Shown piece after piece: positions 2,805-50,542 of a stretch of 50,542 nucleotides of DNA. Under the pieces are notes generated by a model. It was not told the origin of the DNA. It saw only the letters and a program-made list of their open reading frames with translations, and made no database searches. The stretch comes from a virus: positions 1 to 50,542 of IMG/VR virus record IMGVR_UViG_3300023184_000180; one strand, given 5' to 3'. Within the stretch, counting starts at the first letter, position 1. Each line of letters begins with the position of its first letter. Position numbers and translations under genes: made by a program.

Positions 2805-2842
2805 CAAAAAAATAAATAATAATTAACAAAAACGAATAAACA

Positions 2843-15233: not shown

Positions 15234-15713
15234 ATGAGTAGAGTTAAGGTAGATTGGAGAAGTTCAAGTAAGGATAATTACAATTTGTTTTGTAAAAAAT
15301 ATCCATCTATAACTCTTACTTATGATGAATGGAGAAACATCACTTACACTTATAATGAATCTTTTAAAGAATATATATTAGAGACAGGTGATAAAGCAAA
15401 ACTACCTTATGGATTTGGAGAGTTCTCTATTAATAAAAAGAAAAGAAGAAAGGTTACACAAGCTGATGGAAAAGAGTTTATTAATCTTCCAATAGATTGG
15501 CAAAAAACTAAAGAGAAGGGAAAGGTTATATATAACTTCAACTATCACACAGAAGGATATTTCTTTGGTTGGATGTGGTTCAAAAACACAGCAAGATTTA
15601 AACATTCTGATCTTTGGTATTTCAAACCTTCAAGACTTACATCAAGACTACTATCACATTACTTAAAAACCAGCGATAAGTATCAACACATTTATAAACA
15701 ATGGAAATCATAA
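15234..15713 (+). CDS. Conserved basic neck-cluster protein
   Basis: This 159-residue protein is strongly basic. It has an aromatic-rich core (GYFFGWMWFKNTARF, about 108-122) and a Lys/Arg patch (KKKRRKV, about 68-74). I recall similar short proteins in crAss-like and other Bacteroidota phages at this place, but no firm function. The charge suggests contact with DNA in the neck channel or with the acidic portal or scaffold tail. It is flanked by two ring-like proteins with 3-nt gaps on both sides, so it is part of the same co-translated neck cluster. Confidence 0.6.
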   Translation: MSRVKVDWRSSSKDNYNLFCKKYPSITLTYDEWRNITYTYNESFKEYILETGDKAKLPYGFGEFSINKKKRRKVTQADGKEFINLPIDWQKTKEKGKVIYNFNYHTEGYFFGWMWFKNTARFKHSDLWYFKPSRLTSRLLSHYLKTSDKYQHIYKQWKS

Positions 15714-21925: not shown

Positions 21926-21929
21926 TGTA

Positions 21930-23498: not shown

Positions 23499-23499
23499 T

Positions 23500-24366
23500 A
23501 TGACAAAAGTTATAACCATAAGATTAATACAGACTGGACCAAATGTTGGACCATTTGACATTACAGATAACTATGGAAACATTATAGCTGAGAATGTTTC
23601 TAAGAAAGCATTAATTCAAGGAAGAAGTTATGTTGTAGACAGTAGTGTATATGCAGTGATTTTAAAATCTATAGGTAAATGTAATGCGTCATTCACTATA
23701 AAATTAGAAGATATTAATATTACAGACTATGCAAATATAAAATATACACAATCTGTTACAGGATGTATATGGAGACATTTAACTAATATAGAAATATACA
23801 ATACCTTCTATGGAAATATAGCACCATACATTATAGAATATCCATTTGCTTATCAGTACAATGATCAGATATTACAGAATGTACAAGACTATACTAAGGC
23901 ATATGAATATCTTCCTATATATGATGGTGTGTTTAACCAGAACACAAGAATAGAAACAAACAACAAATGGTTTAATAAAGCTGTTCTATATAATGGACAA
24001 CAGAGTTCTGGTATACTTGAACTTGTAGCAAAACCAATGCATAATTTGCAAGCTTACAATAATTATCCTATCTTTAACGCTGAAAGTAAAACCATCACTT
24101 ATACTAAGAGTGATAACTTCTATCAGTATAATACATTCTGGGCTGCAGAGATAAGTTCTCAAGTTCCATTGTTTTATACATCATGTGAATCTCTTTCTAT
24201 TGACAAAGTGGTAAATCAAGCTAATATGGATTATGGTCCTAAGAGTTTTAAGAAAGCAACACTAAGAGCAAAAGATTTAAAGGTGAGACACATATTAGAT
24301 AATAGATCTGATATACATTTAGTTAGTCAATTCATAGTAACCCCATCACAAATATCTTACAAATAA
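23500..24366 (+). CDS. Muzzle C-terminal fragment with N-terminal NVGPF domain
   Basis: Residues 1-~75 are an NVGPF domain (PNVGPFDITDNYG; SIGKCNASFTIKL) paralogous to the start of the protein at 12419. Residues ~88-288 match what I recall as the C-terminal end of crAss-like muzzle proteins: 'NTFYGNIAPYIIEYPFAYQY', 'KAVLYNGQQSSGILELVAKP', 'YTKSDNFYQYNTFWAAEI', and 'KVRHILDNRSDIHLVSQFIV'. This is too short to be a stand-alone muzzle and fits the end of the protein at 16697. Its stop codon overlaps the next start by one base (TAATG), so coupling to the cargo gene is likely. Confidence 0.7.
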   Translation: MTKVITIRLIQTGPNVGPFDITDNYGNIIAENVSKKALIQGRSYVVDSSVYAVILKSIGKCNASFTIKLEDINITDYANIKYTQSVTGCIWRHLTNIEIYNTFYGNIAPYIIEYPFAYQYNDQILQNVQDYTKAYEYLPIYDGVFNQNTRIETNNKWFNKAVLYNGQQSSGILELVAKPMHNLQAYNNYPIFNAESKTITYTKSDNFYQYNTFWAAEISSQVPLFYTSCESLSIDKVVNQANMDYGPKSFKKATLRAKDLKVRHILDNRSDIHLVSQFIVTPSQISYK

Positions 24367-33500: not shown

Positions 33501-33992
33501 AATAGAGCTAAGATAAATCAAGAACGTATGGCAAACATACAGTTGAATGCTGCTCAAATGGATAAACAAGAGATGGCTAAATCTAAAACAAAAGAAGTAG
33601 GCCAAAAAGCTATTGCTTCTATTGCTGATAAGAATCTTAAGTATGATGCTGATGTTATGAGATATAAAGTTAATCGTAACTTGTTTCCACAATTTGGATA
33701 TGATGCATCAGGTAGAATACAAAATCAAGGTCCTTGGTATCAACCAACTCTTCCACAAATCTATGGAGGTAAATCTACAATAGAAGAAGTTCCTGTATAT
33801 GGTCCTGATGGTAAAATACAATATTACAAAATGCAAGAAACAGGTAAAACAACAACAGATACAACTACTCTTCCTTCTAATGCAACACCACCATTTGTTC
33901 CTGGACAAGGATATGCTTCAAAAAAGAATGGTGGATCAGTTGTTAAAAATGCTAAGAACAGTTCAGTTGTTAGAGGATATAAAAATTTATAA
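30582..33992 (+). CDS. Virion cargo protein with EF-hand-like loop and Gly-rich segment
   Basis: This is probably a second cargo/ejection protein. The start (SQILKIAGVKSEKEFYKKYP) is one I recall from other crAss-like cargo proteins. An AQNS motif at 40-43 is followed by an EF-hand-like loop (D49, N51, N53, G54, D57, E60) like that in the portal. Residues ~60-200 are Asn/Pro/Gln/Phe-rich and probably disordered. A Gly/Ser-rich hydrophobic segment (GSLGSLFGPVGSLAGTAIGG, about 325-345) resembles membrane-active ejection segments. Helical and charged regions follow, then AQNS at 709-712, and an extended C-terminal domain with AKNS 13 residues from the end. No enzyme motif is seen. The stop codon lies inside the repeated regulatory element. 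Confidence 0.68.
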   Translation: MKSQILKIAGVKSEKEFYKKYPTEAAFFKAHPEAKSIKKAQNSASLQTDANANGIPDYLEMNPPSPTYGPQNNWNFGNNFTAPSPSFNAPSVGQMAGNAFQPAADPFATPNYGQQWAQQNPLPANNPNSKFSNGVFGSGSQGNNSSQPFNMQGFGNVFTGAVEGFQALKAEKELTNKLETWANVSDVVKKAGISNAFAEKPKRKWFSPDDPRFIHNTGEQTIQQGRGTDVLGLGQNGSMIGGNPTEVQNTFGIGSSVYKDLEDPDNVKNFQGGGGFGNWFGQANSALSGSGNTSFMGNVGQGSPFDSLIGGSFGNNAGSKIGGSLGSLFGPVGSLAGTAIGGYFDKEPGHQAFQQGRINENNNFLGRLDYANGITGGLNKMGVAENGGYMNPEYNPQVITMFGDHTAEDFADYAHKYRAGGHLKEYTPPSERAMQTYENGGEISSYALGGKLKSYWGGKVEDMSYNPYLPGSGMTAMIKGASHKNGGVGISYGDGENEYQGYAANGADMGADIEAEFNEPVIEMAENGTKDTKAVVYGNIPASKIMADEFGNETVNRLVDKYPGWTMKKIVAERTKDEIKANKNIDKAAKISNNADTNTRFGKLDEATAKIIKESGDDTLKMIADEKVGLADFQDYLQDIKQKLSFVRGKNVSAEAVGKGTLKGKPLTIDDVLAGKIDDRDPITKDAEIKNPYANSEEVAKFGTSLRKAQNSTTITPADDSITEDQYNNFIKLYNESQSTKGKANNSTLEFQKLYHQFFPKEALAAIQKTTKENGLSNRAKELGLTKDDILAGKDIAKILQSNEDKYHGPRTDQYMASVRSHFKQTPDLKLNTLGTTPTTTATNTTKPGIGVVPYKGNNIANIANMILPFVQKDNIPPIDPREFAGEYMALAQNQYEPVPSQQYTTELDPLYRVSYQDVRNASTADFRDALKQGAFNPAVAAGVYAKKAMADQASYADEFRTNQALEQQIYGGNRAKINQERMANIQLNAAQMDKQEMAKSKTKEVGQKAIASIADKNLKYDADVMRYKVNRNLFPQFGYDASGRIQNQGPWYQPTLPQIYGGKSTIEEVPVYGPDGKIQYYKMQETGKTTTDTTTLPSNATPPFVPGQGYASKKNGGSVVKNAKNSSVVRGYKNL

Positions 33993-34028
33993 CTATTTTA
34001 ATTATAAAGAATTACCAAAATTGGTTAT
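33989..34028 (+). promoter_or_regulatory. Repeated operator-like element, copy B
   Basis: Bases 33989-34015 match 13183-13209 at 25 of 27 positions, including ATAACTATTTTA and AATTAC. The inverted repeat is slightly degraded here (TAATTAT in place of TAGTTAT). GGTTAT at 34023-34028 may be a further half site. It begins in the stop codon of the 1136-residue gene. Confidence 0.5.
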
Positions 34029-34036
34029 TACTTTTG
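34029..34036 (+). promoter_or_regulatory. Exact TAnnTTTG -7 element
   Basis: TACTTTTG is an exact match to the Bacteroidota -7 consensus, 36 nt before the ATG at 34072. A -33 TTTG is not present at the right spacing, so activity may depend on a factor bound at the repeat just upstream. Confidence 0.4.
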
Positions 34037-34071
34037 GATAATATAATAATTCATATTACATTTGCTTAATT

Positions 34072-36660
34072 ATGGCTTCATACACAGACTCAATCCCTAC
34101 TTTTAATCCTTATGTGCAAACCTTACCTGTCGATGATATGGTTAAGGTGGGTATGTATAAACAACAAAAGTATGATGAAGGGATACAGAAAATTCAAACT
34201 AACATTGATAACATTGCTGGATTAGATGTTATTAGAGATGTAGATAAAGCATATCTACAATCAAAACTTAATCAGCTAGGTAATAATCTTACTACAGTGG
34301 CTGCTGGAGATTTTTCTAATTTCCAGTTGGTTAATTCTGTTAATGGAATGACCAATCAAATATCTAAAGATCCTAATGTAGTGAATGCTATATCATCTGC
34401 TAAGACTTATAGAAAAGGATTGGAAGATATGGATGCTGCTAATAAAGCTGGTAAGGGAGCTGCTTCTCATGATTGGTTATTTAGAACTGATGCTAATGAT
34501 TGGTTAAATAACCAAGATGTAACCAAAACTTTTAGTGGTGGATATAAACAATATTCTCCATATGCAAAAAATGCAGAAGAAGTTATTAAAGGACTAGTTA
34601 AAAATGAAACTGGTAAGGATGTAGCATTTGAATATGATAAGAATGGTAACATGATTGTGTTAGATGCTATAACACGTACTAGAGTTTCTGGTATCACTCC
34701 TGAGAGAATAAAATCAGCATTGATGGTTGGTCTTAGTCCTAATGATTTTCAATCAATGCAAATTGATGGTAGATATAATTATGCTAACTCTACTCCTGAA
34801 CAGTTTACCGCTGATATAAATAAATCATACACTACAGATTATAATAAGATGAAACAGTTGAAAGAGATAACTCTTAATGCTATTGACTCAACTAAATCTG
34901 CATCTGAGAAATATAAATTACAACAACAAGTTAATTCATTAGATAAATCATTAAAAGATGTACAAGATGAATACAGTAGTGTTACAAAAACATTTGCTCA
35001 AGGTGATACAGAATCTGCTAAGGCAAGATATTATAGCACTAAATGGATGAATAACTTTGCTCAAACATTTTCTAGTTTATCAGATGTTTCAAGTTATGAA
35101 ACTAATGCATATCAACAACCTTTACAGTTTAGAGAAACTAAAGCTATTGAATATAAAAAATGGTTAAATACATTTAATCAAAATGAAAGATTTCATAAAG
35201 ATGATCAATATTTTAAATTAAGAGATGACCAAAGAGCTGAGAATAAAGATAAAAGAGAACAAGATGCTGCAGATGCTGCATCATTTACTTGGGGTGGTCT
35301 TCCTGTAGATGTTCCTCAAGATGAACTTCCTGAAGTTACTGCTGCAAGAGTTGCTGGTCAAATTGATGCAGATCAAAAATCAATTGATTCTACTGATGCT
35401 GCTTTAATGAAACGATTTAATAAAGAAGGAGATACAACTTGGTTGAATCAACAAAAAGCTGCATGGCAAAAAAATCCAGGAAACGTTGATGCTAGATTAG
35501 CTTTATATTTTAATGATACAGAAGAAAAAAGAAGAAATATAGCAGCTAATACATCAATGATTGCTGGAATAACTTCTGAGATGGATAAGAAGTATGGAAC
35601 TATTGATAAATATATTCCAAAAGATTCTAAATCTGTAACAATTAACTTTCCTAGTGGATCTTATACATATACACCTAAAGACTTTGTAGAGTTTAATGAT
35701 AAATTTAAAAAATATATAATTAGATCAGGTAGTTCAGGATCTAGAACAGCTACTCAAGAAGTATCATATGATTATGAAAAAGCAAAAAAAGAACTTTCTG
35801 CTAAAGAATATTACTTACTTCAATCTAGAATAAGACAAACTGGATCTGCACAACAATTACTTACTAAAAATTTAGTGTATTATAATGATAAAGTAAATAA
35901 ACCATATGAAAAAGTTATAAAACAAAGATATAGTGAAGAGAATAAAATGATTCAAGATAGAACAGTAGCTATGCAAGGAGTGCAGTATGGTGTTCAATTA
36001 GATAACGAAGCTCAAAAAACTTCATTTGGAAATGTTCTTCAAAACTTTGCAGATCTTGCAGATAGTCAAGGAGGAGGATTAGCAAATTCTCCAGGTGTTA
36101 AAGCAGAAGATATAAGAGATATAGTACCAGGTCTTCAAAATGCTAACATAAGAGTTGTAGAAGCAACTCAATTTGCTCCAGCAATGTATAGAATTACAGC
36201 TTCAGATAAAGATGGAGCTACAATACACCTAAATATGACTCCTGAACAATATTATGCTGTGACTAAAGGTAAGTTTGATCCTCCTGCTGAAATTGCAGCA
36301 ATTCGTGATTTACAAGCACAACAAGTTAGAACAGGTGGAACAACTACTGCTCTTGATGGTGGTAAAACAAATATAGCAAATGCTTATATGGGTAATGCAC
36401 TAAACTTTGTAAATGTACGTCACTATTCAGTTTCAGGAAATTTAGAAACAGAACAAAATGGTTTATCATCAATAAGACTTAATGTTATAGATCCAATTTC
36501 TGGAGAAGTATTAACAGAAGATCTTGGATATCCAAATGGAGGACTTATGACAGCAGATAAAGTAAATGCTGCAATAAAAGGATTAACAGATGAAAGAATA
36601 TTTGAGATGTTATATAAAAGAAAACCTACAGCTGCAGAATTAAAACAATTACAACAATAA
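34072..36660 (+). CDS. crAss-like virion protein upstream of the RNA polymerase gene
   Basis: This 862-residue protein is mostly alpha-helical and charged. I recall homologues next to the RNA polymerase gene in other crAss-like phages, but no established activity. The start (YTDSIPTFNPYVQTLPVDDM) is a compact, probably conserved N-terminal tag. Residues ~25-110 and ~270-410 look coiled-coil-like. The C-terminal third is more globular, with TPEQYYAVTKGKFDPP and a closing Lys/Leu/Gln helix. Its own promoter-like region separates it from the earlier cargo genes and links it with the 4434-residue gene 20 nt downstream. A chaperone- or scaffold-like partner of the polymerase in the virion is possible but unsupported by motifs. 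Confidence 0.62.
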   Translation: MASYTDSIPTFNPYVQTLPVDDMVKVGMYKQQKYDEGIQKIQTNIDNIAGLDVIRDVDKAYLQSKLNQLGNNLTTVAAGDFSNFQLVNSVNGMTNQISKDPNVVNAISSAKTYRKGLEDMDAANKAGKGAASHDWLFRTDANDWLNNQDVTKTFSGGYKQYSPYAKNAEEVIKGLVKNETGKDVAFEYDKNGNMIVLDAITRTRVSGITPERIKSALMVGLSPNDFQSMQIDGRYNYANSTPEQFTADINKSYTTDYNKMKQLKEITLNAIDSTKSASEKYKLQQQVNSLDKSLKDVQDEYSSVTKTFAQGDTESAKARYYSTKWMNNFAQTFSSLSDVSSYETNAYQQPLQFRETKAIEYKKWLNTFNQNERFHKDDQYFKLRDDQRAENKDKREQDAADAASFTWGGLPVDVPQDELPEVTAARVAGQIDADQKSIDSTDAALMKRFNKEGDTTWLNQQKAAWQKNPGNVDARLALYFNDTEEKRRNIAANTSMIAGITSEMDKKYGTIDKYIPKDSKSVTINFPSGSYTYTPKDFVEFNDKFKKYIIRSGSSGSRTATQEVSYDYEKAKKELSAKEYYLLQSRIRQTGSAQQLLTKNLVYYNDKVNKPYEKVIKQRYSEENKMIQDRTVAMQGVQYGVQLDNEAQKTSFGNVLQNFADLADSQGGGLANSPGVKAEDIRDIVPGLQNANIRVVEATQFAPAMYRITASDKDGATIHLNMTPEQYYAVTKGKFDPPAEIAAIRDLQAQQVRTGGTTTALDGGKTNIANAYMGNALNFVNVRHYSVSGNLETEQNGLSSIRLNVIDPISGEVLTEDLGYPNGGLMTADKVNAAIKGLTDERIFEMLYKRKPTAAELKQLQQ

Positions 36661-36679
36661 GGATTTAAAACCTATTATA

Positions 36680-39600
36680 ATGTCAGAAAAAAATCTAGAA
36701 TCAATTGATATTGCTCAGAATGGTACAGCAGCAGTTAATCCTGTTCCTACACAATTGAATGTGGAAACATCTATGTTAGATAGAATGGATATGGAACGTG
36801 AGTTTGGTGGATATAAAGCACCAACACCTCAAGATCCACTTCCTAACTATGCAGGTAAACCAAATGTGTATGAGGATCCAACTATTCTAGCACCTGTTCG
36901 TGGTGAAGAGAATACAGGTGATTTAAAATCATTAGAAAACTATCTACTTACACCAGGAAAAAGTAAAGATGGAGGAAGTGTAATGAGAACTCTTGCTGAA
37001 GTATCATCTAATAGATATGATAACTTTGTTCCTGGTGATTATAATAATGAAGATGGATATGCTCAAGGGCAAGGATGGCCTTCTAAAATGATTAATGGTG
37101 TAGGTAAAGGACTTTTACTTACAGGTACAACATTTCTACAAGGTACACTTGGTCTTGTTAATGGATTAGCTAGATGGGCTGAAGATGGTAGATTTGCATC
37201 GTTCTATGATAATGAATTCAATAGACAACTAGATGAAATGAATAAAAAGGCAGAAGATGCTCTTCCAAACTATTATACAGATAAAGAAAAAAATGGTAAG
37301 TGGTATTCTCCTGACTATTGGATGACAGGTAACTTCTTATGGGATGGTGTTGTTAAAAATATGGGATTTGCTGCTGGTGCTTATTTAACAGGAGGAGCTT
37401 ATTCTGCTGCATTAAAAGGACTTGCTACACTTCCAGGTGCTGCTAGATTATTTTCTATGGGTAGAGCTGCTGAAGCAATAGCTGCATCAGAAGAAGCTAT
37501 GGTTGGTCTTGATGCATCTTCTACAGCATACCAAGAAATAAAAGGATTAAATGATGCTTTCCTATCTAAATATAATGTTCTTCAAAAAGGACATAGAGCT
37601 GTAGTTGCTGGTTTATCTACAACTGGTGAAGCAGGATTTGAAGCATATACTAATCTAAATGAATTTAGAAATAAAAAAATACAAGAATATAGAAATGATC
37701 ATAATGGATTAGAACCTGTTGGTGCTGATCTTGCTAAGATTAATGCTGATGCTGATGCTGTAGGTAATTCATCATTTGCAGCTAACGTTGCTTTATTAAG
37801 TGCTACTAACTACATTCAGTTTCCTAAGATATTAGGAAGTTCATATACTGCTGAAAAAGGTATAATGAATAATGTTACTAGAGAGATTGGAGCAATTACA
37901 GAAGAAGCTGGTAGATATGCTGTAGCAGTTCCTAAGAATAAAGTGTTATCCACTTTAAATAAAGTGAGACCATATTTATTCTCTACATCTGAAGGATTTG
38001 AAGAGGGTGCTCAGTATGCTATTCAAATGGGTACACAAGACTATTATAATAAAAAATATAATGGTGAAGCTAACTCTTTTTTAGAATCTATGGGTGTTGG
38101 TATAAAAGCAGGATTTGCTTCTGATGAAGGAGCTAAGAATGTTCTTATTGGTGGATTGTCTGGATCTATAATGATGGCTAAGGGTAGATTTAGAGAAGGA
38201 AGAGAAGAAACTGCAAACACAGCTAAAGCTGTTCAATCATTCAATCAATACAGATTCTCAGACTTCACTGCAGAAACAATTGATTCTGTAAACAGAGGAA
38301 CTACTCTTCAACAAGAAAGAGAAAAACTTTTACAACAAGGAAATCTTACTGAGAGTAAAGATAAAGAAACAGACTATATAATTAACTACTTAACACCTCG
38401 TATTAAGTATGGTAGATTTGATCTTGTTAGAGCTGATATTGATGACCAAAGAGCATTAGCTAGAACAGATGCAGGTTTCCAACAATTACAAGCTGAAGGT
38501 AAAGCTCTTGCTACAGATACAAAAGAAGCATACTTAGCTAGGTTAGCTAACTTTGAAGAAACAGCTAACAATGTAAAAACAATGTATCAATCTCTTAGCT
38601 TACGTTATGGAGGTAAAGTTGATGCAGATGGTAATCAAATGTATCCACCTGCAGTGATTGATAAACTAATCTATGCTGGTACTAAACTTGCAGACTATGA
38701 CAATAGAATATCTAGAGTTTCTGAAAAACTTATTGGTAATGTTGATAATTTAGATCAAGTTCTTTCAGATATATCTGAAGGTAAAACAGAAAGTTATGAG
38801 AATGCTTTAGCCACAATTAAAGCAGATAAAAAACTTACTAGTGATCAAAAAGAAGACTTAACTCAAGCTCTTGATGATTCAGCATTGATGACTCTTAAGA
38901 GAGGAATGTTTGTACAAGAATATGATGCTATTAAAAAGAATCCTGAAAACTTCAAAGAACAACCAGTAGATACAGAAACAATTGATGATGTCACTCCTAA
39001 AGAAACCATTACAGTTAAAACTAAAAATGGTGATAGAAAGATTGAAATAGGTACAGAGTATGTACTTGGTAAAGTGACTGAGTATTCTGCAGGTGGTAAA
39101 GAAGTTTATCGTCAACCTAGATTAACTGTATTAGGAGTTAATGAAGATGGTACTATTAAGATTAAAACTTCTAATGGTAAAATTAAAGATGTATCTACTG
39201 AAGAGTTTGAAAGTTATAGCTTAACACCAGCTAGTTTAATGTTGACCAATAAGAAGTTCAACTACTTTGAGAAACATCAGAACACTGTATTCAGAAACTA
39301 TAATATCAAGAAATCAAATGGTGATCCAGTTGAAGGTAGATTAGAATACAATAATAAGAAAGATAAACTTACATTTGTATATGTTGATGAGAATGGTAAG
39401 ATACAAAAAACAGAGGTTTGGAACAAAATGTTTGTTGCTGCAGAAGGATATTCTGGAGCTAGTATCAGACCTATTGGTAATCTAACTGCTGTACAACAAA
39501 AAGCTATGGATGAGTTTGTTACTGCTGAAACCACCATATCACAAAAACTTCAGACAAGAAACAGAATCATTACAGATCTATACGAAAACACTGTTAAACG

Positions 39601-42600
39601 TATTGAGGAGATAAACAAAAAGTTAGAGAATAGTAAAGATGCTGTTCAGAAAGAACAAGAACGTTTAGAAGCTGAGATAGCTAAAGAAACTCTTACTAAA
39701 GCAGGTAAGGTTCGTAAAAGACCTACCACTGTTCTTAAACAATTAACTAATACACTAGCTAACTTACGTAGTGTAGTTGAGAAAGAAAATAATACACTAA
39801 AAGAAGAGAAAGCAGAATTAGAAGCCACACTTCCTTTCTTCAAAGATTTCTTAGATAGTATAGAGACTCTTCCACAGAATAGTGTGACGATGATCAAACA
39901 ATTAAAAGAAGACATCAATACATTAGAAGATCTTATTGAATCAACAAATGATTCTATTAAGTCAAGTGACTCTTTATTGAAACAAATAGATGATATGCTA
40001 CAAAAAGCATTATCTATATTTGATGACTATGTTAAAAGATTAAAACAAGAAAACCCAGATGTTCCATTATTCCTTGAGGATCTACAAGCTAATGTAGAAA
40101 GATTCTTAGGTGAAGAAGGAGCAAGAATGTTTATTGAGAATAGACAAGGATTTACAGAACAAGTTATACAGCTTGAGTCTGATATAAATGATTTTGCAGA
40201 TGAGTTAAAGATTCCTGAGCTTGATAGACAAGCAGAAAGTCTTGTTAAAGAAATAGGAGAGCTTAAGACTAAGCTTGACAATCTTATTGGTGAGCAAATG
40301 GCCAAAGCTAAGATATTGGATACATTCCAACAGTTTGCTGAAGATGAGAAAGCTAAAGAAGCTGAAGAGAAAAAGATGCGTGATAATGAAACGTTGAAAA
40401 AGAATCTTCTTGGTACACTTACTGATGCTATTCAAAACTTCTTTGGTAAAGAGTCTTACGAACCTATGGCTAAGAAAGATAACTTTTCAGTAGTAGGTGG
40501 AACAAAACCAACTGATGATAGAGTTCCTCATCAACAGAGAGTAAACTTCTTTGGTAATAAGTTAGAGACTTTTGAAAACAAAAATCAGCTTAGAGGAATG
40601 ATTGTTACAGCTAAGACTGAGAATGATATTCTTCCTGGGCTTACAGAAGACTTTCTTCAAGATATGGATGAGGGAGAAAGAAAAGAAAGAGCTAAAGCTG
40701 AAATCATCTACATGGTGGTTGTACAAGATAATCTAGATGGATCTTTCTCTGTAGTGGATCAAAATGGTCAACCTATTCTTAATGATGAAGATAAAATCAA
40801 TAATGCTATCTATCAAGTATTTCCAAACACAGACCTTACAGCTACATTTGATGGTGAGACTTATTCTATGTTTAGAAAAGAAACTGAAGATGGTTTATTA
40901 ACTGAAGAACAAGAATCATTAAAACAACAATATAAAGAATGGTCTGCTGATCAATTATCTAAAGTGGAGTTAACTGCAGATGATATGCAAGAGTTTTCTG
41001 CTTCATTTGGTCAACCACAACTTGTTACAACTAAAAATGTTGAAGGAGAAGATGTTACAAATAAAGCAGCAAGAACTTCTGCACAAGCTGCAGGTCTTGT
41101 AACTCAATCAGGATTAAGAAAATCTCCTATAGTTGAGGTGGCTACAACAGGTGAATCTGTATCTGAAGGATCTGTAACTTTTGGAACTCCTACTGGTAGA
41201 GTGTTCTTAAGAATACCTGGAAGAGGACTAGCTAAATTATTCAATAGAAAATTAACTGATCAAGAAGCTAAAACAATATTTGATGTAATGCATCAGATTA
41301 CAAAGAATGCTTTAAGAGATGGTGAGATAAATGAGAGCTCTAAAGATTTATTCAATTGGTTAAAATCTGTAGTTTATTGGGGTATTGCAAAAGATCAAAA
41401 TGGAAAAAGAAAACCTGCAGGATATAATAACATCTGGTTTGAAACAGTTAAAGATGATAATGGTGAACCAGTTGTAAAATTATTTATGTCTGGTCTTGCT
41501 AAAGATTCAAAAGAATATTTTGACTTTACACCTACAGGATTACAAGATAGTAAAGATGCTATCATTGCATTACTTAAAGAGATGTATAATAATACAGACT
41601 CTTTAAAAGTTAATGGTGATGGTTGGAACAATCCATATTATGAAATCACAGGTATTGATAGTGAAGGAAATCCTATAAATAGAGAATGGCCTAACTACCA
41701 AACTTATTTGTTATCAGATAAAGCTCCTGGTGCTGATGGTAAATTAACTGTAACTAGAGAGAATAAAGAACTTCCATTAGCTACACAATTTAGACCTATT
41801 ACAGAAAGTCAACCTACTAATAGAGATGGAATCTATTTCACATTGAATAGTACAGGTAGAACATATGTTAAACCAGAACCAGCTGTAGTTGCTGTTCAAC
41901 CAGTTGTATCACAAGCTAAGTCTACAGCTAAAGAAGAATTTGTATTTGATGGTATTACAACTAATACAATTAACAATCCTGATTTAGGAGATATTGTATT
42001 CACTGTAGATGAAGAAGGTAATGTAGGACTTGATTTAGAAGCTTCTGCAGATGCTATTCTTGAATTAGCAAAGAAAAAGACTGCTGTTGGAAAATCAGAT
42101 GAGGAAGCTCAAAACTGGGCAGTTAGTAACTTAATAAAAGCTGTTGAGAATAAAATTAATAAACCTGCAGCTACACAAACTGCTACAGAACCTGCACCTG
42201 TAGCTAAACCAACTGCTGCAGTGAGTGATCAAGTTGTTAATTTTGATGATGCCACTCCTAATATATTAGAAACTGATTATGGAACAGTTATGTACTTTGC
42301 TAATGAACAAGGTGAAGTGGATATCAATCTAGATGAGTCTGCAGATGCTATTATTAACTTAGCTGAACAAAAGAAAGTAGATCATAACAAAGCAGCTAAC
42401 ATTTTAATTAAAGCTATTGAAAAGAAAATAGCTCCACAACTTGTACAACAACAAGTTCCAAATCTTCCTCCAGTTGCTGATCCAGCTCCTGTAGTAGAAG
42501 CAGAAGTTTCTGATATAGAAGCTAAAGAAGAAATAATTTCTGAACAAACAACAAACGATGATGATGATGTTAGTTGGAATGAACCTGTTAAACCTACATC

Positions 42601-45600
42601 AAGTGGATCTAGAAAACTATATAGATTAGCTATTAGAAACAAAATGCAAGATATTGTTCCAGAGAACTGGAAACAAGTGGAAGCTTTTATTAAGAAAGTG
42701 ATGCCAAATGTTCCTATATACAGAGTTAAGAATATTATTGGTGCTACTAATGGTAGACAAGCTTGGGGTATGTTTCATCAAGGTGCTATCTATATATATG
42801 AGAATGCTGAAATAGGTACTGCTTACCATGAGGTATTTGAAGCTGTATGGAAAATGTTTGCTGGTGCTGAAGAGAAACAAGCTATTTTCAAAGAGTTCAG
42901 AAATAGAAAAGGAAGTTTCTATGATGTATTTCAAGATAGAGAAATAAATTATGCTGATGCTACTAATGAAGAAGTTAAAGAAAAGCTTGCTGAGGAATTC
43001 AGAGATGCTGTTCTTGCTGATAAGTTAGGTAAACCATTAGCATCAAAAGGAATGATTGGTAAATTGTTCTCTGAATTAATTGACTTTATTAAAGGTTTCT
43101 TTACAGGAGAAAAAGCTCAAACAAATACAAAAGAGTTATTTGCTAAGATAGGTAATGGATTCTATTCACAATACAATCCATTTGAAACAAAACTATCTTA
43201 TGCTAATAAAGGAATACAAGAAATAGAATCTGCTGAAGGTGATGAAACATCTGAGTTCAGATTGAAAGTGAAAAATATCCCTGCTACACAATTGCATGAT
43301 ATTATTCAACACATGACATATAGTACATTATCTTATCTATCTCAAACAAATCAAAGTCTTTTTGAAGTGGAGAAACCTAAGAAAAGTGATTTGTATGCTA
43401 GACTTAGAAAAGAGATTTTAAGAAACTGTGTTCTTGAACTTAGAGCTCAATTAGTTAATGATAAAAAAATATCAGAAGAAGAAAGAACTGCACAAGAAAA
43501 TAAATTAAAAGATCTTTTTGATAAGATTAAAGAAGAGTGGCCTGCTATTGTTGAGAAACATGAAGAGCATCTTAAATCTTATGCTATTGAGTTTGATGAG
43601 AACGATGAGCTTAATATAAACGATGAAGATAATTCTGGTAAATCAGATTACATGGATGCTAGAAAGATTGATTCTTTTAGAAAAGCAAATCGTGTAGTAA
43701 AACTTTTATTAGCTACACTTCCTAAAACTAAAATAGTTAGTGGTGAAGTGATTCCTGATATCTCTACAATAGGTGGTGTTGTATTAATGCCTGCAGATCA
43801 AGCATTTGTTACATTAATGAATGCATTGCATGATTCTGTAAATGTTGATGAGATGTTTGATAGACTTAGAACAATGGCTAAAGCTAATCCAAACTTTGAA
43901 GTTTTATACAAACGTTTGACAGGAGGAAGGTCTATTAAAGAAAAAATTAATTGGGATTCATTAAAACAACATGATCTTCAATTGATTACAGCTTTCTGGA
44001 ACTCAATGAAGAAACAGAATGCAGATGTTGTTACAGTGTTTGTTCTTCCTTCAGGTGAAATAGTTATTGGTAATTCTGTATTAAGTGGAGCTGCTAGACA
44101 AGCTAAACGTGAGATGATTAATAACATCATTGAAGCAACTAGAACAGATAACAATGATTATTTATTCTATAACACTAAAACGCAAAAATACAATCCTAAA
44201 ACAATCACTAAAAACATTAAATTTAATTCAGGTCAATTAGATCAATATCTTGCATTCTTACAAGGTATGGGAATAAACTTTACTATAGGAGATTCTAAAA
44301 AACCAATGACAGGAGATCAAATTAAAAATAGTTTAAATTCTGATCAACTTAGAATGTTTAGAAAAGCTGTAGAAGGAATTCAAAAAAGTTTAGCTGGATT
44401 AGAAGATGTTGCTACACTTAGTGCTAAAACATTGGATATAGTTAAACGTCTTACTCAATTAGGAACTATAAAAGCTATTCTTGAAAACCCTGATTTTGAA
44501 AGTACATATTTCAATATCAATGGAGAGCGTACACAATCATTTATTGGAACTAATGCTATTAGTTCTATTCATGATGTACTTTCTAAATTGACTAACATTA
44601 GACAGTTAAGTGATGCAACTAAAGGATTTTCTTCATACAAATATTTATTAACAGACGTATTTACTAAAGATAGTAGTGTGATGTTAAGTAAAATGTTTGA
44701 CTTAGCAGAAGATGGTGATGGTGGACGTATTGCTGGTACAGAAGATCTTATGAAACCTGTATTCATTGATGGAACAGTTAATGAACAAACTGGTGTTAAG
44801 AAAGAGAGTTCTAAGCTTTCTGCTAAACAAAGATTCTTACAAGCAATCAATCTTAATCTAGGAGGTATATATGAAAACCTTGTACCAGGAGATGCTTCTA
44901 TTGAGCATGCTATTAAGATGCATAATGAAGATGATCCATTTGTTACAGAGGAAGCATTTAAAAATGGTAAGCACTTAGAGATTTTTAGAAAATATTTCAT
45001 GGCTGAAGTGGCACTTGCTAGAGATGGAAGAAAAGTTGTTGGTGATAGAAAATCAACAGACTTACGTTTCTTCAAATCTATTCTAGGAGATACATTGCAT
45101 AATCAGATTATGTCTAAATCTAATTCTAAAAAATCTGCAGAGAAGTTATATGAAGATAATAAGAAAGAAATAAACGCTGCTGTTAATAGTTTTATAGCTG
45201 AAGATGCATCAACTACAGATAAAGTACTTAGAGGATTTGGTGCTGTATATACCACTGCTGAGGGAGTAGAAACTGAAGGAGTGGCATTTTCTGAAGATGA
45301 TGTTTTATCAAAAGAAGGATATGAGAACAAGTTGAAATTGTTATCTACTAACTATATGATAGCTAACATTGAGATGCATAAACTTGTTTATTCAGATCCT
45401 TACCAATACAACGATGAGTTGAAACGTATTAAAAACTTTAACTCACCTAGACAAGCATTATTATACGGTTCTAATAAAGTTAATGCTGCATTAAATGAAC
45501 AATACAATAAAGGATTTGATCCTGAAGATATAGGATATACAGATATGAACATAAATCATTTTGTATCTACAGTGATCGATGATGTATTCTCTACTGCAGA

Positions 45601-48600
45601 CTTTGAAGAATACATGAAAGCATATGAAGAAACAGATGGTGGTGGATTGATTTCATTGAAAGCAACTCGTATATTCCTTCTTCGTACAGGTCAATGGAAT
45701 GATTCTAAAGAGAAACAATACAGATATGATGTTGCATATGAGAAAGTTGTTAAAGGTGAAGGCTTAACAGAAGCAGAGAAAAAGGCACAAGGACTTGTTC
45801 TTACAGATGAAGAGAAAGCATTTAACATTAAAAAAACAACTAATTCATCTGGTGAAGTTAGATATGTAGGAAAAAATCCTAATGTAAGAAGTCTTTATAC
45901 TGCTATTAAACCTATTGTATCAGGAAATAAAGTGGATGGACAAAACTACAATGATGTTGTATTAGATAAATTCGCTTTGGTTCCATTATCATTTAGAATA
46001 ATGCATGAATTAAATCCTGATTCAAATGCAATCAAGATGTATAATAAAATGCAAAGAGAGAATACAGATTATGCTGTATATGCATCAGGTAGAAAAGTGG
46101 GAATTGGTGAAGTTACTCCTCTTTATCTTCCTTCAGGAGAATTTAATGAAGCTTCTTTTGCAGAAATAAATAATATTCCATTCTCTATTATGGGATTACA
46201 AACTGAGGTGCCTTCTAAAGATAATCCAATAGTAACTCAAGGATCTCAAATTACAAAACTTGTAACCATGGATTTCATGGATGCTGGTGTACCAATTGAC
46301 TTTGAATTAAAAGATAAAAAAGGAAATATTATTGAAGATATCAATGAACGTTTTGTTGCATGGAATGATCTTACAACAGAAGTAGCAAAAGAAAAAGCTT
46401 CTCCATTATACAAAGAGATAACAAATAATCAAAAACTTCTTGAAGCTAAGATAGAACAAGGATATAAAACTCTATTAAAAAAACTTGGTATTACACAAGG
46501 AGTTGATAAAAATGGTAAAGCTACATTCACTATATTAGATAAAGACAAACTAATCAAAACATTAAGTGATGAGATATTGAAGAGAGAAGTGAATAACAAT
46601 ATCACTGATGCTCTTGAAGGATTTAAATCTGGTGATGTTGTATTAGAAGCTACTCCTGCATACCAACAAATTAGAAACATTCTTTATTCTATTGCTGATA
46701 AGAATGTTGTATCTCCTAAGATATCTGGAGGTATGAAGGTACAGATTCCTTCTACACTTCTTGAGTCTAATCGTGTTAAAGGAAAAGAATTTAAAGACAA
46801 AAAAGGAAATGTTAAATACAGTTATACATCTGACATACTTAAGTTTTATAAAAATGCAGATGGTGAGCGTGTATGTGAGATAATGATATCTAGATGGTTT
46901 GATAATGCTCAAACTAAAAACATGTCAGATAAAGAGCTTCTTGACTATCTAAACACTACAGATGAAGGTAAAGCTATATTAGCTGGTATTGGATATCGTA
47001 TTCCTACACAGAAACAAAACTCTATTGATAGCTTTGTTATCAAACAATTCTTACCAAAAGACTTTGGTGATAACGTTGTTGTTCCTTCAGCTTTAGTTAA
47101 GAAGGTGGGATCGGATTTTGATATTGATAAATTATCAATCTACTTAAAGAATGTATATTCTGATGCTGCAGGAAAATTAAGAATGGTTCCTTTCTTAGGA
47201 TATGGTCAACAAGCTATTGATAAATTCAAAGCTATGGCTATTGAAAATAATAATGCAGAAATCTACAGACAAGCAAAATCTGTAAACTCATCTAAAGGTA
47301 CTTATGAAATATTCCAAAATATTATAGATGGTACAGCTGATGATTACACTAGAAACAAATGGTTACCTATCATTGCTGATTGGTTCCCAGAACAAGTTCA
47401 AGATGGTTCATTAGATGCTGATGAAGTACAAACTCATTTACTAAGAACTATCCAAGAGAAACAAGGAAAATTAGATAAGCTTACAGATGAAGCATTAACT
47501 GAAATTTGGGCACAAGAGCAATCAGAGATATGGTATAAACAATCTCTTGAGAATGCATATATCCAATCATTACAAAACTTGGTTAGTCATGAGTCAAACT
47601 TTGAGAACTTAATCAAACCTAACTCTGCAGATGAGATGAAAGACTTATCTATAGAAATTAATAAAGAGATGGGTAATCCAGAGATTGACTATAGTAATGT
47701 AGGTAACATGTTAAGTAGAACATTTATGTCTTCTTTAAGACAAGCGTTTGTATCTGGTAAATATGCAATTGGTATTGCTGCTACTGGTCAAACTAATAAT
47801 GCTGATAATCAACGTGTTGCAACATATATTGATCTTGATAAACTAAATGAAGTTGATCCTGTAGATAGAGAAGTATTAGGTGGTAATCCTAATTCAAATA
47901 CATTTGCTACTGATCCAAATATTAACTTCGAAGAGTATAATACAATTACAGTTGATGGTAAAATAAGACCTACTCTATCATTAATTAAGAACAAAGCTGG
48001 TAAATATATATCTGATATCATTGGACAATTTATTGATGGATATGTGGATATCTCTAAAGGTCCATGGATCATGAGACTTGGTGCTACACAAAACGTAGCT
48101 TCCACTTGGTTATTTTTAATTAAAGTTGGTGTACCTGCAAATACTGTTGCGTATTTTATGAACCAACCTATCATTAGAGACTACTTAAAATCTTTAGATA
48201 ATAAAGGATACTCATGGTTATTTAATGATGGTATAATGAATTCTACATTAGACTTATATGAACCAAACATCACTGCTTTAAAAAATACTAAAGTGTCTGG
48301 AATTCCATCAGAGACTGAGCTATTTAAAATGCTTAAGTATAATAAAGAAGGAATGAAAGAGAAGATGGATGATGTACAAAAACTACAACAACAATACATG
48401 TTGAAAGAGTTTATCAAGTATTCTAAAATGGGATCTCAATTGTTTGATGTAGTACAAGGATCTAACTTTGATACAGCTACAATCAATGACCCATATTTAG
48501 TATTCAAGAAAAGACTTCAATTAGAGAAAGCTAGAAAATCTATCATCTCTTCTGTAGATAAACTATTAAACAGTTCATTTAAAGGAGTTCTTAAGAACAC

Positions 48601-49984
48601 TATATTTGATGTAAGAGATGCATTTGCTGAAATTCTTATATCTGATAAAGCTAATGTAAGATCTGTAATGGAAGAAGTGCTAACTCCTTATGTAAAACTA
48701 AGTGATAGAGAGTTTGTTAAAGTGAGTCAGAAAGCAGTGAATGATCTTTTTGACTGGGCTGTACAAACTAATAGAAGCATTAATGTTAATGTTGCAAACA
48801 TATTATTAGGAACCAGTACAAAAGAAAGTGCTGCTCAACAGATCATTAACTTTAGAGATTCTATATTAGGAAATAAACATAAAGGAATTGCTCCTAAAAC
48901 TGATCATCCATTATTCAATAACATCATTCTTAACTCTATTAAGATGGAAGCTGGTACTAAAGAAGGTAAAGCTGATAATCTATATATTGCAGGAAGAGAT
49001 AATAAAGTGTATGATCAAAATCTTACTATATATGGATTTGAAGAATTGAAAAAGCATTTAGATAGTGAAGATAAAGATCTTTATGGAAAACTTGTAAGAC
49101 TTGCTGTAATTCAATCAGGACTTACTAATTCTCCTATTGCTTTCACTAACCTTCTTCCTTATAATGATTTCAAAGAAATATACAATCAAACATTGTCTAA
49201 TTTAGAAAATATGCCTAACTTAGCTGACTTCCAAAAGCTACGTGTTTTTGAAAGAAATAACTGGAATAATTATAACATCATTTCATTTATGAGAGCTAAG
49301 ATGCTATTGAATAAATCTAATTATGGAAGAGGTGCTAACTTATATGATCCTAATCAGTATTTTACACCTGGACAATTGAAGAAAGCTATGACTAATGGTA
49401 CTCTTCCAATGGTAATAGGTATTAGTCCTTTTGGTGATGGAAGAAATGATTTCATTACATATAGCTGGGAAGAAGATATTCCTTATGCAGAAAGAATGAA
49501 AAGAAAGAAAAATGGAGATTACTCTCACATACATAAAGTGTTATTACAAAAAGTGTATACAAAAGATGAGAAAGGTAATCCAATTCCATTGGTTGATGTA
49601 AGTGAAAAAAATGGAAAGGTGTATGTAAAACATATATTCAAAGCTATCAACGCATGGGGAGATTCATTCAGAGCTCAAGAGTATTATGATTATGAAAGAT
49701 CATCTGTATTAGATAATGGATATGAGAAGGTAGAAAGAGTGACAGATGCTCAAGGTAAACAAATCAAATCAGGTGAAGTGAGTGATGATGATGTTGTAAA
49801 AATCTATCAAGGTATTTCTGAAGTGGTAGCTAAACCTACAGAAACAGTAAATGAAAAATCTGAAGGAGTAAAACTAAAAGATGGTAATATATACACTGCA
49901 GAACAATTAAACACAAAAATGCTTGTGTCTTTAGGATACACTACACAAGAAGCAGGAAAAATAATTAAAAATAATAAATGTTAA
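36680..49984 (+). CDS. Giant virion RNA polymerase protein, crAss-like
   Basis: This is a 4434-residue virion protein holding the catalytic domain of the crAss-like RNA polymerase, which transcribes early genes after injection. The active-site motif is D3479-F-D3481-I-D3483 in a context typical of the group ('AGIGYRIPTQKQNSIDSF', 'FLPKDFGDNVVVPSALVKKV'). Other landmarks: AQNG at 12-15; hydrophobic segments (about 136-165, 226-257, 490-505); a long coiled coil (about 955-1240); two tandem ~70-residue repeats (about 1753 and 1853) with Pro/Ala-rich linkers; and a HExxH-like motif whose third ligand is Glu (H2050-E-V-F-E2054). The Cellulophaga phi14:2 polymerase is, from memory, about half this length, so this looks like a fusion of cargo and polymerase. 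Proteolytic processing after synthesis is possible. Confidence 0.82.
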   Translation: MSEKNLESIDIAQNGTAAVNPVPTQLNVETSMLDRMDMEREFGGYKAPTPQDPLPNYAGKPNVYEDPTILAPVRGEENTGDLKSLENYLLTPGKSKDGGSVMRTLAEVSSNRYDNFVPGDYNNEDGYAQGQGWPSKMINGVGKGLLLTGTTFLQGTLGLVNGLARWAEDGRFASFYDNEFNRQLDEMNKKAEDALPNYYTDKEKNGKWYSPDYWMTGNFLWDGVVKNMGFAAGAYLTGGAYSAALKGLATLPGAARLFSMGRAAEAIAASEEAMVGLDASSTAYQEIKGLNDAFLSKYNVLQKGHRAVVAGLSTTGEAGFEAYTNLNEFRNKKIQEYRNDHNGLEPVGADLAKINADADAVGNSSFAANVALLSATNYIQFPKILGSSYTAEKGIMNNVTREIGAITEEAGRYAVAVPKNKVLSTLNKVRPYLFSTSEGFEEGAQYAIQMGTQDYYNKKYNGEANSFLESMGVGIKAGFASDEGAKNVLIGGLSGSIMMAKGRFREGREETANTAKAVQSFNQYRFSDFTAETIDSVNRGTTLQQEREKLLQQGNLTESKDKETDYIINYLTPRIKYGRFDLVRADIDDQRALARTDAGFQQLQAEGKALATDTKEAYLARLANFEETANNVKTMYQSLSLRYGGKVDADGNQMYPPAVIDKLIYAGTKLADYDNRISRVSEKLIGNVDNLDQVLSDISEGKTESYENALATIKADKKLTSDQKEDLTQALDDSALMTLKRGMFVQEYDAIKKNPENFKEQPVDTETIDDVTPKETITVKTKNGDRKIEIGTEYVLGKVTEYSAGGKEVYRQPRLTVLGVNEDGTIKIKTSNGKIKDVSTEEFESYSLTPASLMLTNKKFNYFEKHQNTVFRNYNIKKSNGDPVEGRLEYNNKKDKLTFVYVDENGKIQKTEVWNKMFVAAEGYSGASIRPIGNLTAVQQKAMDEFVTAETTISQKLQTRNRIITDLYENTVKRIEEINKKLENSKDAVQKEQERLEAEIAKETLTKAGKVRKRPTTVLKQLTNTLANLRSVVEKENNTLKEEKAELEATLPFFKDFLDSIETLPQNSVTMIKQLKEDINTLEDLIESTNDSIKSSDSLLKQIDDMLQKALSIFDDYVKRLKQENPDVPLFLEDLQANVERFLGEEGARMFIENRQGFTEQVIQLESDINDFADELKIPELDRQAESLVKEIGELKTKLDNLIGEQMAKAKILDTFQQFAEDEKAKEAEEKKMRDNETLKKNLLGTLTDAIQNFFGKESYEPMAKKDNFSVVGGTKPTDDRVPHQQRVNFFGNKLETFENKNQLRGMIVTAKTENDILPGLTEDFLQDMDEGERKERAKAEIIYMVVVQDNLDGSFSVVDQNGQPILNDEDKINNAIYQVFPNTDLTATFDGETYSMFRKETEDGLLTEEQESLKQQYKEWSADQLSKVELTADDMQEFSASFGQPQLVTTKNVEGEDVTNKAARTSAQAAGLVTQSGLRKSPIVEVATTGESVSEGSVTFGTPTGRVFLRIPGRGLAKLFNRKLTDQEAKTIFDVMHQITKNALRDGEINESSKDLFNWLKSVVYWGIAKDQNGKRKPAGYNNIWFETVKDDNGEPVVKLFMSGLAKDSKEYFDFTPTGLQDSKDAIIALLKEMYNNTDSLKVNGDGWNNPYYEITGIDSEGNPINREWPNYQTYLLSDKAPGADGKLTVTRENKELPLATQFRPITESQPTNRDGIYFTLNSTGRTYVKPEPAVVAVQPVVSQAKSTAKEEFVFDGITTNTINNPDLGDIVFTVDEEGNVGLDLEASADAILELAKKKTAVGKSDEEAQNWAVSNLIKAVENKINKPAATQTATEPAPVAKPTAAVSDQVVNFDDATPNILETDYGTVMYFANEQGEVDINLDESADAIINLAEQKKVDHNKAANILIKAIEKKIAPQLVQQQVPNLPPVADPAPVVEAEVSDIEAKEEIISEQTTNDDDDVSWNEPVKPTSSGSRKLYRLAIRNKMQDIVPENWKQVEAFIKKVMPNVPIYRVKNIIGATNGRQAWGMFHQGAIYIYENAEIGTAYHEVFEAVWKMFAGAEEKQAIFKEFRNRKGSFYDVFQDREINYADATNEEVKEKLAEEFRDAVLADKLGKPLASKGMIGKLFSELIDFIKGFFTGEKAQTNTKELFAKIGNGFYSQYNPFETKLSYANKGIQEIESAEGDETSEFRLKVKNIPATQLHDIIQHMTYSTLSYLSQTNQSLFEVEKPKKSDLYARLRKEILRNCVLELRAQLVNDKKISEEERTAQENKLKDLFDKIKEEWPAIVEKHEEHLKSYAIEFDENDELNINDEDNSGKSDYMDARKIDSFRKANRVVKLLLATLPKTKIVSGEVIPDISTIGGVVLMPADQAFVTLMNALHDSVNVDEMFDRLRTMAKANPNFEVLYKRLTGGRSIKEKINWDSLKQHDLQLITAFWNSMKKQNADVVTVFVLPSGEIVIGNSVLSGAARQAKREMINNIIEATRTDNNDYLFYNTKTQKYNPKTITKNIKFNSGQLDQYLAFLQGMGINFTIGDSKKPMTGDQIKNSLNSDQLRMFRKAVEGIQKSLAGLEDVATLSAKTLDIVKRLTQLGTIKAILENPDFESTYFNINGERTQSFIGTNAISSIHDVLSKLTNIRQLSDATKGFSSYKYLLTDVFTKDSSVMLSKMFDLAEDGDGGRIAGTEDLMKPVFIDGTVNEQTGVKKESSKLSAKQRFLQAINLNLGGIYENLVPGDASIEHAIKMHNEDDPFVTEEAFKNGKHLEIFRKYFMAEVALARDGRKVVGDRKSTDLRFFKSILGDTLHNQIMSKSNSKKSAEKLYEDNKKEINAAVNSFIAEDASTTDKVLRGFGAVYTTAEGVETEGVAFSEDDVLSKEGYENKLKLLSTNYMIANIEMHKLVYSDPYQYNDELKRIKNFNSPRQALLYGSNKVNAALNEQYNKGFDPEDIGYTDMNINHFVSTVIDDVFSTADFEEYMKAYEETDGGGLISLKATRIFLLRTGQWNDSKEKQYRYDVAYEKVVKGEGLTEAEKKAQGLVLTDEEKAFNIKKTTNSSGEVRYVGKNPNVRSLYTAIKPIVSGNKVDGQNYNDVVLDKFALVPLSFRIMHELNPDSNAIKMYNKMQRENTDYAVYASGRKVGIGEVTPLYLPSGEFNEASFAEINNIPFSIMGLQTEVPSKDNPIVTQGSQITKLVTMDFMDAGVPIDFELKDKKGNIIEDINERFVAWNDLTTEVAKEKASPLYKEITNNQKLLEAKIEQGYKTLLKKLGITQGVDKNGKATFTILDKDKLIKTLSDEILKREVNNNITDALEGFKSGDVVLEATPAYQQIRNILYSIADKNVVSPKISGGMKVQIPSTLLESNRVKGKEFKDKKGNVKYSYTSDILKFYKNADGERVCEIMISRWFDNAQTKNMSDKELLDYLNTTDEGKAILAGIGYRIPTQKQNSIDSFVIKQFLPKDFGDNVVVPSALVKKVGSDFDIDKLSIYLKNVYSDAAGKLRMVPFLGYGQQAIDKFKAMAIENNNAEIYRQAKSVNSSKGTYEIFQNIIDGTADDYTRNKWLPIIADWFPEQVQDGSLDADEVQTHLLRTIQEKQGKLDKLTDEALTEIWAQEQSEIWYKQSLENAYIQSLQNLVSHESNFENLIKPNSADEMKDLSIEINKEMGNPEIDYSNVGNMLSRTFMSSLRQAFVSGKYAIGIAATGQTNNADNQRVATYIDLDKLNEVDPVDREVLGGNPNSNTFATDPNINFEEYNTITVDGKIRPTLSLIKNKAGKYISDIIGQFIDGYVDISKGPWIMRLGATQNVASTWLFLIKVGVPANTVAYFMNQPIIRDYLKSLDNKGYSWLFNDGIMNSTLDLYEPNITALKNTKVSGIPSETELFKMLKYNKEGMKEKMDDVQKLQQQYMLKEFIKYSKMGSQLFDVVQGSNFDTATINDPYLVFKKRLQLEKARKSIISSVDKLLNSSFKGVLKNTIFDVRDAFAEILISDKANVRSVMEEVLTPYVKLSDREFVKVSQKAVNDLFDWAVQTNRSINVNVANILLGTSTKESAAQQIINFRDSILGNKHKGIAPKTDHPLFNNIILNSIKMEAGTKEGKADNLYIAGRDNKVYDQNLTIYGFEELKKHLDSEDKDLYGKLVRLAVIQSGLTNSPIAFTNLLPYNDFKEIYNQTLSNLENMPNLADFQKLRVFERNNWNNYNIISFMRAKMLLNKSNYGRGANLYDPNQYFTPGQLKKAMTNGTLPMVIGISPFGDGRNDFITYSWEEDIPYAERMKRKKNGDYSHIHKVLLQKVYTKDEKGNPIPLVDVSEKNGKVYVKHIFKAINAWGDSFRAQEYYDYERSSVLDNGYEKVERVTDAQGKQIKSGEVSDDDVVKIYQGISEVVAKPTETVNEKSEGVKLKDGNIYTAEQLNTKMLVSLGYTTQEAGKIIKNNKC

Positions 49985-49985
49985 T

Positions 49986-50542
49986 ATGAGCTGTCCAAAT
50001 ACAAACTTACCAGAATGGAAATTATTAGTAGCATCTAGAGGAGAAGATGTTGCATATGCTTTATGGGATCTTTATGAAGGAAATGTTCCTGAATCAGAAA
50101 GTAAATTAGAAATTGTAAAGAGTGGATTAAAAGCTACAAACATTTTACAATCTCCTAAAGCTGATCAGTTCTTTGGTGCTGTAGCTAAAAACAAAATCTC
50201 TGGTGATTTCTTTTGGAGAAAGATGCAAGCTGATCTTGGTATTCCTAAAGATCAATTAGAGATATTAAAATCATTTGATACACAAGATAGAGGAGAACTT
50301 ATTTCTTCTCTTCTTGCTAATTATAGTTTTGCTATTGAGATTAACACTGCTAAAAAAATACCTTTTAATGGACAAATATCTTTATCAGAATATAGTCCTG
50401 AATTAGATGCTCAATTTGATAATGATAATAAAGGTGAACCTACATCATACTATTCTAATCTAACAGTTCCAGGAGGAACTAATTATACAGAGAATGAAAT
50501 AGCTACACCAGCTATTACACCAAGTATAAAAGGACATGCTCA
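49986..50542 (+). CDS. Start of another large virion protein (3'-truncated by window edge)
   Basis: The frame is open from the ATG, 1 nt after the polymerase stop codon, to the end of the window (about 185 codons). The opening 'SCPNTNLPEWKLLVASRGED' followed by 'AYALWDLYEG', and the later 'TPAITPSIKGHA', resemble the N-terminal region I recall from giant polyvalent proteins of crAss-like phages. It is helical and charged with no visible catalytic motif in the available part. The context predicts a further polymerase subunit or injected multi-domain protein. Confidence 0.7.
   Translation, partial: MSCPNTNLPEWKLLVASRGEDVAYALWDLYEGNVPESESKLEIVKSGLKATNILQSPKADQFFGAVAKNKISGDFFWRKMQADLGIPKDQLEILKSFDTQDRGELISSLLANYSFAIEINTAKKIPFNGQISLSEYSPELDAQFDNDNKGEPTSYYSNLTVPGGTNYTENEIATPAITPSIKGHA

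Follow-up and report, generated by a model that had tools for sequence, protein, structure and literature searches.

We find that the gene at the end of the late structural block of the window (the whole 50,542-nucleotide stretch analysed here, which comes from a 50.5 kb metagenomic virus record) encodes, with a probability that we put at roughly 90%, a fusion of a virion protein resembling gp47 of phage phiCrAss001 with a crAss-like virion RNA polymerase. It occupies positions 36680..49984 of the plus strand as a single ORF of 4434 amino acids, with an ATG start and no internal stop, and bears, 78% along its length, the DFDID motif (residues 3479-3483). Both its extent and the placement of this motif agree with an earlier note on this DNA, and the proposal of that note that a cargo protein is joined here to a polymerase is sustained by the homologies of the two halves to phiCrAss001 gp47 and to crAss-like polymerases, respectively. 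Against its closest relative (locus L006, 90% identical), the ORF has an overall dN/dS of 0.285, indicating purifying selection, with values of 0.226 in the polymerase half, 0.50 in a zincin-like domain and 0.60 in a linker. Whole-ORF scans against PHROGs and Pfam returned nothing useful; in a scan of 33900-50542, promoter-like sites were fewer than in shuffled sequences and the count of terminators was near expectation.

The C-terminal half (residues ~2151-4340, 43130..49699, plus strand) is identified as a crAss-like virion RNA polymerase by several sequence comparisons. With residues 2101-4434 as the query, tblastn recovered phi14:2 g066, phiCrAss001 gp50 and other crAss-like polymerases, and a 15-sequence family profile matched phi14:2 g066 at 3e-17 (profile positions 3155-3582) and maps phiCrAss001 gp50 to positions 3217-3780. 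A PDB search with the ORF as a single sequence gave nothing useful; a 58-sequence profile of residues 3062-3530, the predicted two-barrel polymerase core (45863..47269, plus strand), found one significant chain, namely 6VR4, the solved phi14:2 polymerase (5.7e-21). This alignment spans RIPTQ/RIPNQ to GSDFDIDK in both proteins, is strong across the DxDxD barrel and weak over the region preceding it, and brings the DFDID of the window, its predicted catalytic Mg-binding loop (47114..47128, plus strand), into register with that of 6VR4. The protein of the window therefore carries the DxDxD motif in the GSDFDIDK context of the phi14:2 gp66 family, and the form DFD-I/V-D is present in all seven diverse crAss-like polymerases that were aligned.

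An AlphaFold2 model of the same residues, computed from the 58-sequence alignment, is of modest confidence (pLDDT 70, pTM 0.52, with a pLDDT of about 56-66 in the DFDID loop); an earlier model of residues 2880-3960 from 15 sequences was set aside as poor (pLDDT 41). The only PDB match of the newer model below 1e-3 in Foldseek is again 6VR4 (E 7e-7, probability 1.00, global RMSD 21.9 Å). Since the RMSD is large and the Foldseek score takes in sequence as well, we regard this match as support for, rather than proof of, both barrels, for which the alignment to 6VR4 is the main evidence. In a viral structure library, the significant matches were cr108_1, cr4_1, cr131_1, cr116_1, cr272_1, CrAss-like virus ctXt06, Virus NIOZ-UU157 and two others. 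Thus, the polymerase identity assigned to this half by the earlier note stands, with the alignment and the fold around D3479 both pointing to 6VR4. In passing, we observed that the fused polymerase gene of cr108_1 is interrupted by ~300 bases within its catalytic motif (between GSD and YDIDKM; L002:28380-28720), in a manner consistent with an intron. We also noted that the only bacterial-genome match of the polymerase is a 4.9 kb contig of a Tissierellales MAG (L270:1-4944); as this could be a binning error, the attempt to infer a host from it failed.

The N-terminal half is, as judged by comparable searches, homologous to phiCrAss001 gp47 and phi14:2 g067, both of which are virion proteins. 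The gp47-homologous region (residues ~80-760, 36917..38959, plus strand), a predicted RNAP-associated virion cargo module, is also shared with crAssE-Sib WOZ57301, a bajarodcaudovirus and Leptolyngbya phage Lbo-JY46 XAI97382. By tblastn, residues 162-756 match phiCrAss001 gp47, and the family profile aligns with this protein at 4.8e-38 and 2e-18, over profile positions 86-739 and 1860-2029; hence, both ends of gp47 are represented, including its C-terminal HEAFH domain, and the protein of the window combines homology over the N-terminal region with a zincin-like C-terminus, as in gp47-like proteins. In phiCrAss001, gp47, gp49 and gp50 were established as RNAP-associated virion cargo by mass spectrometry (PMC10172136). 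From the end of gp47 and the start of gp50, we infer that the junction between the two halves lies near residue 2150, after the zincin-like domain. The earlier note had further described hydrophobic, coiled-coil and repeat regions ahead of the polymerase. A Lys/Glu-rich segment (residues ~940-1250, 39497..40429, plus strand) with only weak helical matches makes the coiled coil plausible, and a degenerate tandem repeat is present in a Pro/Ala/Thr-rich linker (residues ~1741-1990, 41900..42649, plus strand) that varies in length across an alignment of 15 relatives. The hydrophobic component fared less well: over residues 1-2300, the Kyte-Doolittle mean of every 19-residue window stays at or below 1.4, leaving membrane anchoring of this half unsupported by hydropathy. 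The linker repeat comprises a unit of ~70 residues present in two degenerate copies, one around 'DGITTNTINNPDLGDIVF...' and the other around 'DDATPNILETDYGTVMYF...'.

The fusion is genuine and conserved, joining two virion cargo proteins. Each of the 14 relatives recovered with the DFDID region has a single ORF of 4125-4585 amino acids that carries the same motif. Among another 160 loci, retrieved with alignments of the zincin-like domain or the polymerase (in two scans that overlap in contigs), those containing both regions have them in a single frame, save for four truncated loci and locus L158. In the latter, two ORFs are joined by TAATG and profile positions ~1902-2096, corresponding to the zincin-like domain, are missing. 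At the other extreme, a single 6405-aa ORF in locus L157 (953-20170) joins gp47-like, polymerase and gp49-like proteins. As a fragment of 50.5 kb that derives from a metagenome, the window might raise the suspicion that two genes were joined by an assembly or frame error; the identical type of fusion in ~80 distinct sequences from independent metagenomes, as well as in named genomes, makes this vanishingly improbable, and the independent contigs carrying it rule out an assembly artefact. In these comparisons, the fusion is conserved throughout a large environmental clade, which includes L157 and L158 and from which we found no isolate. In a tree of the polymerase core, this clade forms one group of 58 rows (SH-aLRT 100) on a long branch, beside the phi14:2-containing group with a support of only 81. 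At least five changes between fused and split states are needed across the 133 classifiable tips of this tree, and we claim no direction for them, given the weakness of many branches and the lack of a root. The interchange of fused, split and triple-fused forms among relatives indicates that gene boundaries within this set of cargo proteins evolve freely.

Contrary to the earlier idea that known crAss-like polymerases are shorter or split over separate genes, a fused crAss-like polymerase is unexceptional. Polymerase fusions and giant sizes have already been published (PMC10770324, PMC10136315), and giant polymerases of up to ~6000 aa have been called a crAss-like hallmark in a review; together with the fused genes in RefSeq and GenBank records, they show the claim of rarity to be wrong. 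The closest architectural parallels are five ICTV-named Suoliviridae (delta crAss-like), in which annotated coordinates give single ORFs of 4551 (cr1_1), 4946 (cr118_1), 4645 (cr53_1), 4491 (cr4_1) and 4494 aa (cr60_1), with domain positions confirmed by profile. Like the ORF of the window, each of these ~4490-4946 aa proteins has the zincin-like motif upstream of the polymerase and DFDxD ~65-78% of the way along, with a separate giant gene downstream; the window thus has the Suoliviridae-type fusion of a zincin-bearing part to the polymerase with a separate downstream RNAP-associated protein. The five differ in retaining an intact HExxH where the window has HExxE, the barrel of cr118_1 is about 25% identical to that of the window, and the ORFs of cr53_1, cr4_1 and cr60_1 are open only when TAG is read as a residue.

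Other families show alternative arrangements of the same parts. In Intestiviridae (crAss002, cr8_1, p-crAssphage), the giant polymerase gene of the same family is likewise a fusion (gp45/gp44 of p-crAssphage, Carjivirus; gp32/gp33 of crAss002), but the polymerase is joined to the downstream part and the upstream zincin-bearing protein is separate. The p-crAssphage record accordingly names gp45 a 'putative RNAP associated protein fused to zincin protease' and gp44 a 'putative RNAP catalytic subunit fused to unknown RNAP subunit'. The split genes of phi14:2 and phiCrAss001 are one state among several. In phi14:2, g066 (6VR4), with g067 and g065, shares the polymerase half, gene order and catalytic motif with the window; it differs in having three separate genes and a g067 without HExxH, and, as the three are adjacent and codirectional, their fusion would need only the loss of a stop and a start. 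In phiCrAss001, gp47, gp49 and gp50 include homologs of both halves, with gp47 ending in the HEAFH zincin-like domain, but the genes are separate, with gp49 and gp50 on the strand opposite gp47. Virion polymerases fused to ejection parts also work alike in Thermus phage P23-45 (gp96) and coliphage N4 (gp50), the latter of which also contains an HExxH subdomain (PMC12633501); these differ in domain order, no sequence match between them and the window was found, and they are not members of the family.

The zincin-like domain (residues ~1991-2150, 42650..43129, plus strand), recognised by its homology to the gp47 C-terminus, lacks the HExxH of catalytic zincin metallopeptidases and has H2050-E-V-F-E2054 in the position where outgroups carry HExxH, followed by LAEEFR (2103-2108). 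An alignment of the domain matched no family in Pfam or PDB, and its name hence derives from the gp47 homology, the HExxH motif and the p-crAssphage annotation. Across all aligned loci, the fifth motif position is E in 143 and H in 55; outside the clade it is H in nearly every sequence, L206 being an exception, and at least nine H/E changes are needed within the 83 distinct sequences of the clade. The loss of the second histidine, which the window shares with most other members of its clade, is a modestly new observation, and we predict that the domain in the protein of the window is probably not a working protease. That it might still be a metallopeptidase, with glutamate as the replaced ligand, is suggested by the near-invariance of HE and the downstream LAEEFR in HExxE members. 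We consider this decidedly unlikely: loss of the second histidine removes a defining metal ligand, the domain evolves with a dN/dS of 0.50 against 0.23 in the polymerase half, and no Pfam or PDB profile matches it. Positions 2058 and 2100 also tend to be Lys where the motif is HExxE, which would fit a salt bridge standing in for the metal; this trend holds in nearly all of four independent pairs (sign test p 0.125), too few for it to reach significance, and such compensation is suggestive only.

These features bear on whether the fusion persists as one chain. By extension from relatives, a chain of ~500 kDa would be made late, packaged in the capsid, and ejected via the tail, either before the DNA or together with it; it would then refold in the host, where the polymerase half, as in phi14:2 and phiCrAss001, is predicted to transcribe early genes, likely partnered by the protein encoded immediately downstream. 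The fusion would fix a 1:1 ratio of the two proteins and ensure that they are delivered together, whereas in other crAss-like phages their delivery is separate. We expect it to work as one chain. Alternatively, it might be a polyprotein that is cut in the linker (1741-1990) or near 2150-2350 during assembly or ejection. The products would be the very gp47-like protein and free polymerase that relatives encode in separate genes, L158 splits between these parts within the clade itself, and the variable linker and zincin-like domain lie between the halves. Nevertheless, the fusion has persisted through a deep clade, we found no cut site reported in any relative, and the polymerases of P23-45 and N4 have been described as single giant chains, so that cutting seems to us rather unlikely. 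Since the window and most clade members carry HExxE, self-cutting by the zincin-like domain is improbable; this loss concerns that domain alone, and another protease may cut the fusion. A bolder and highly doubtful scenario is that the domain was an ancestral processing protease, freeing the polymerase in HExxH lineages, which was repeatedly switched off in the clade of the window to leave an uncut ~500 kDa cargo-polymerase acting as a single machine at the entry channel. The mixture of H and E at this position, along with the split relative that lacks the zincin-like segment, provides natural variants with which to ask if such giant cargo proteins undergo cutting.

The genomic context suggests that the window likely belongs to the order Crassvirales. 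The start of the next gene (49986..50542, plus strand), at which the window ends, encodes a homolog of the third RNAP-associated virion protein (phi14:2 g065, phiCrAss001 gp49); the profile of this gene in the clade matches cr108_1 gp052 (1.4e-39), crAss001 gp49 (7.5e-8) and phi14:2 g065 (1.4e-5). Upstream of the fusion ORF lies a candidate virion cargo gene (34072..36660, plus strand) common to Lbo-JY46 and crAssE-Sib. A Crassvirales structural block, with IHF-like, tail and muzzle genes in addition to the giant polymerase, is present: it includes genes for a portal (41-1408), a major capsid protein (2843-4405), an IHF-like protein (15234-15713; 1.4e-16 against phi14:2) and a muzzle protein (16697-21925; Lbo-JY46 3.2e-172, crAssE-Sib 1.1e-91, crAss001 3.6e-6). 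The placement is likely rather than proven because crAss proteins gave only marginal matches to the major capsid protein; by tblastn, that protein matched Lbo-JY46 alone in the phage collection, at 25%. With structural genes nearest those of Lbo-JY46 and crAssE-Sib, the window represents a lineage of crAss-like phages that has no close named member in that collection, and we assign it to no family; Virus NIOZ-UU157, with 51-56% identity in the structure library, may belong to this lineage.

Several further observations concern these neighbours. The muzzle-like protein appears to be split over three adjacent ORFs in different frames in the window (16697-24366; 1742, 522 and 288 aa) as against one long gene in Lbo-JY46 and crAssE-Sib. 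Lbo-JY46 (L268:7355-20261), whose host is a cyanobacterium, has a gp47-like protein, but a catalytic DxDxD is not recognisable in the neighbouring 2748-aa protein XAI97381, which bears only a faint similarity to the downstream RNAP-associated protein. Finally, the major capsid protein has at least 598 matches in IMG/VR, and identity over the best 80 of these is 94-98%, in contrast to the polymerase core of clade members, which is mostly only 54-67% identical; in contig 3300043466_001519, for example, the capsid protein is 96% and the core 61% identical.
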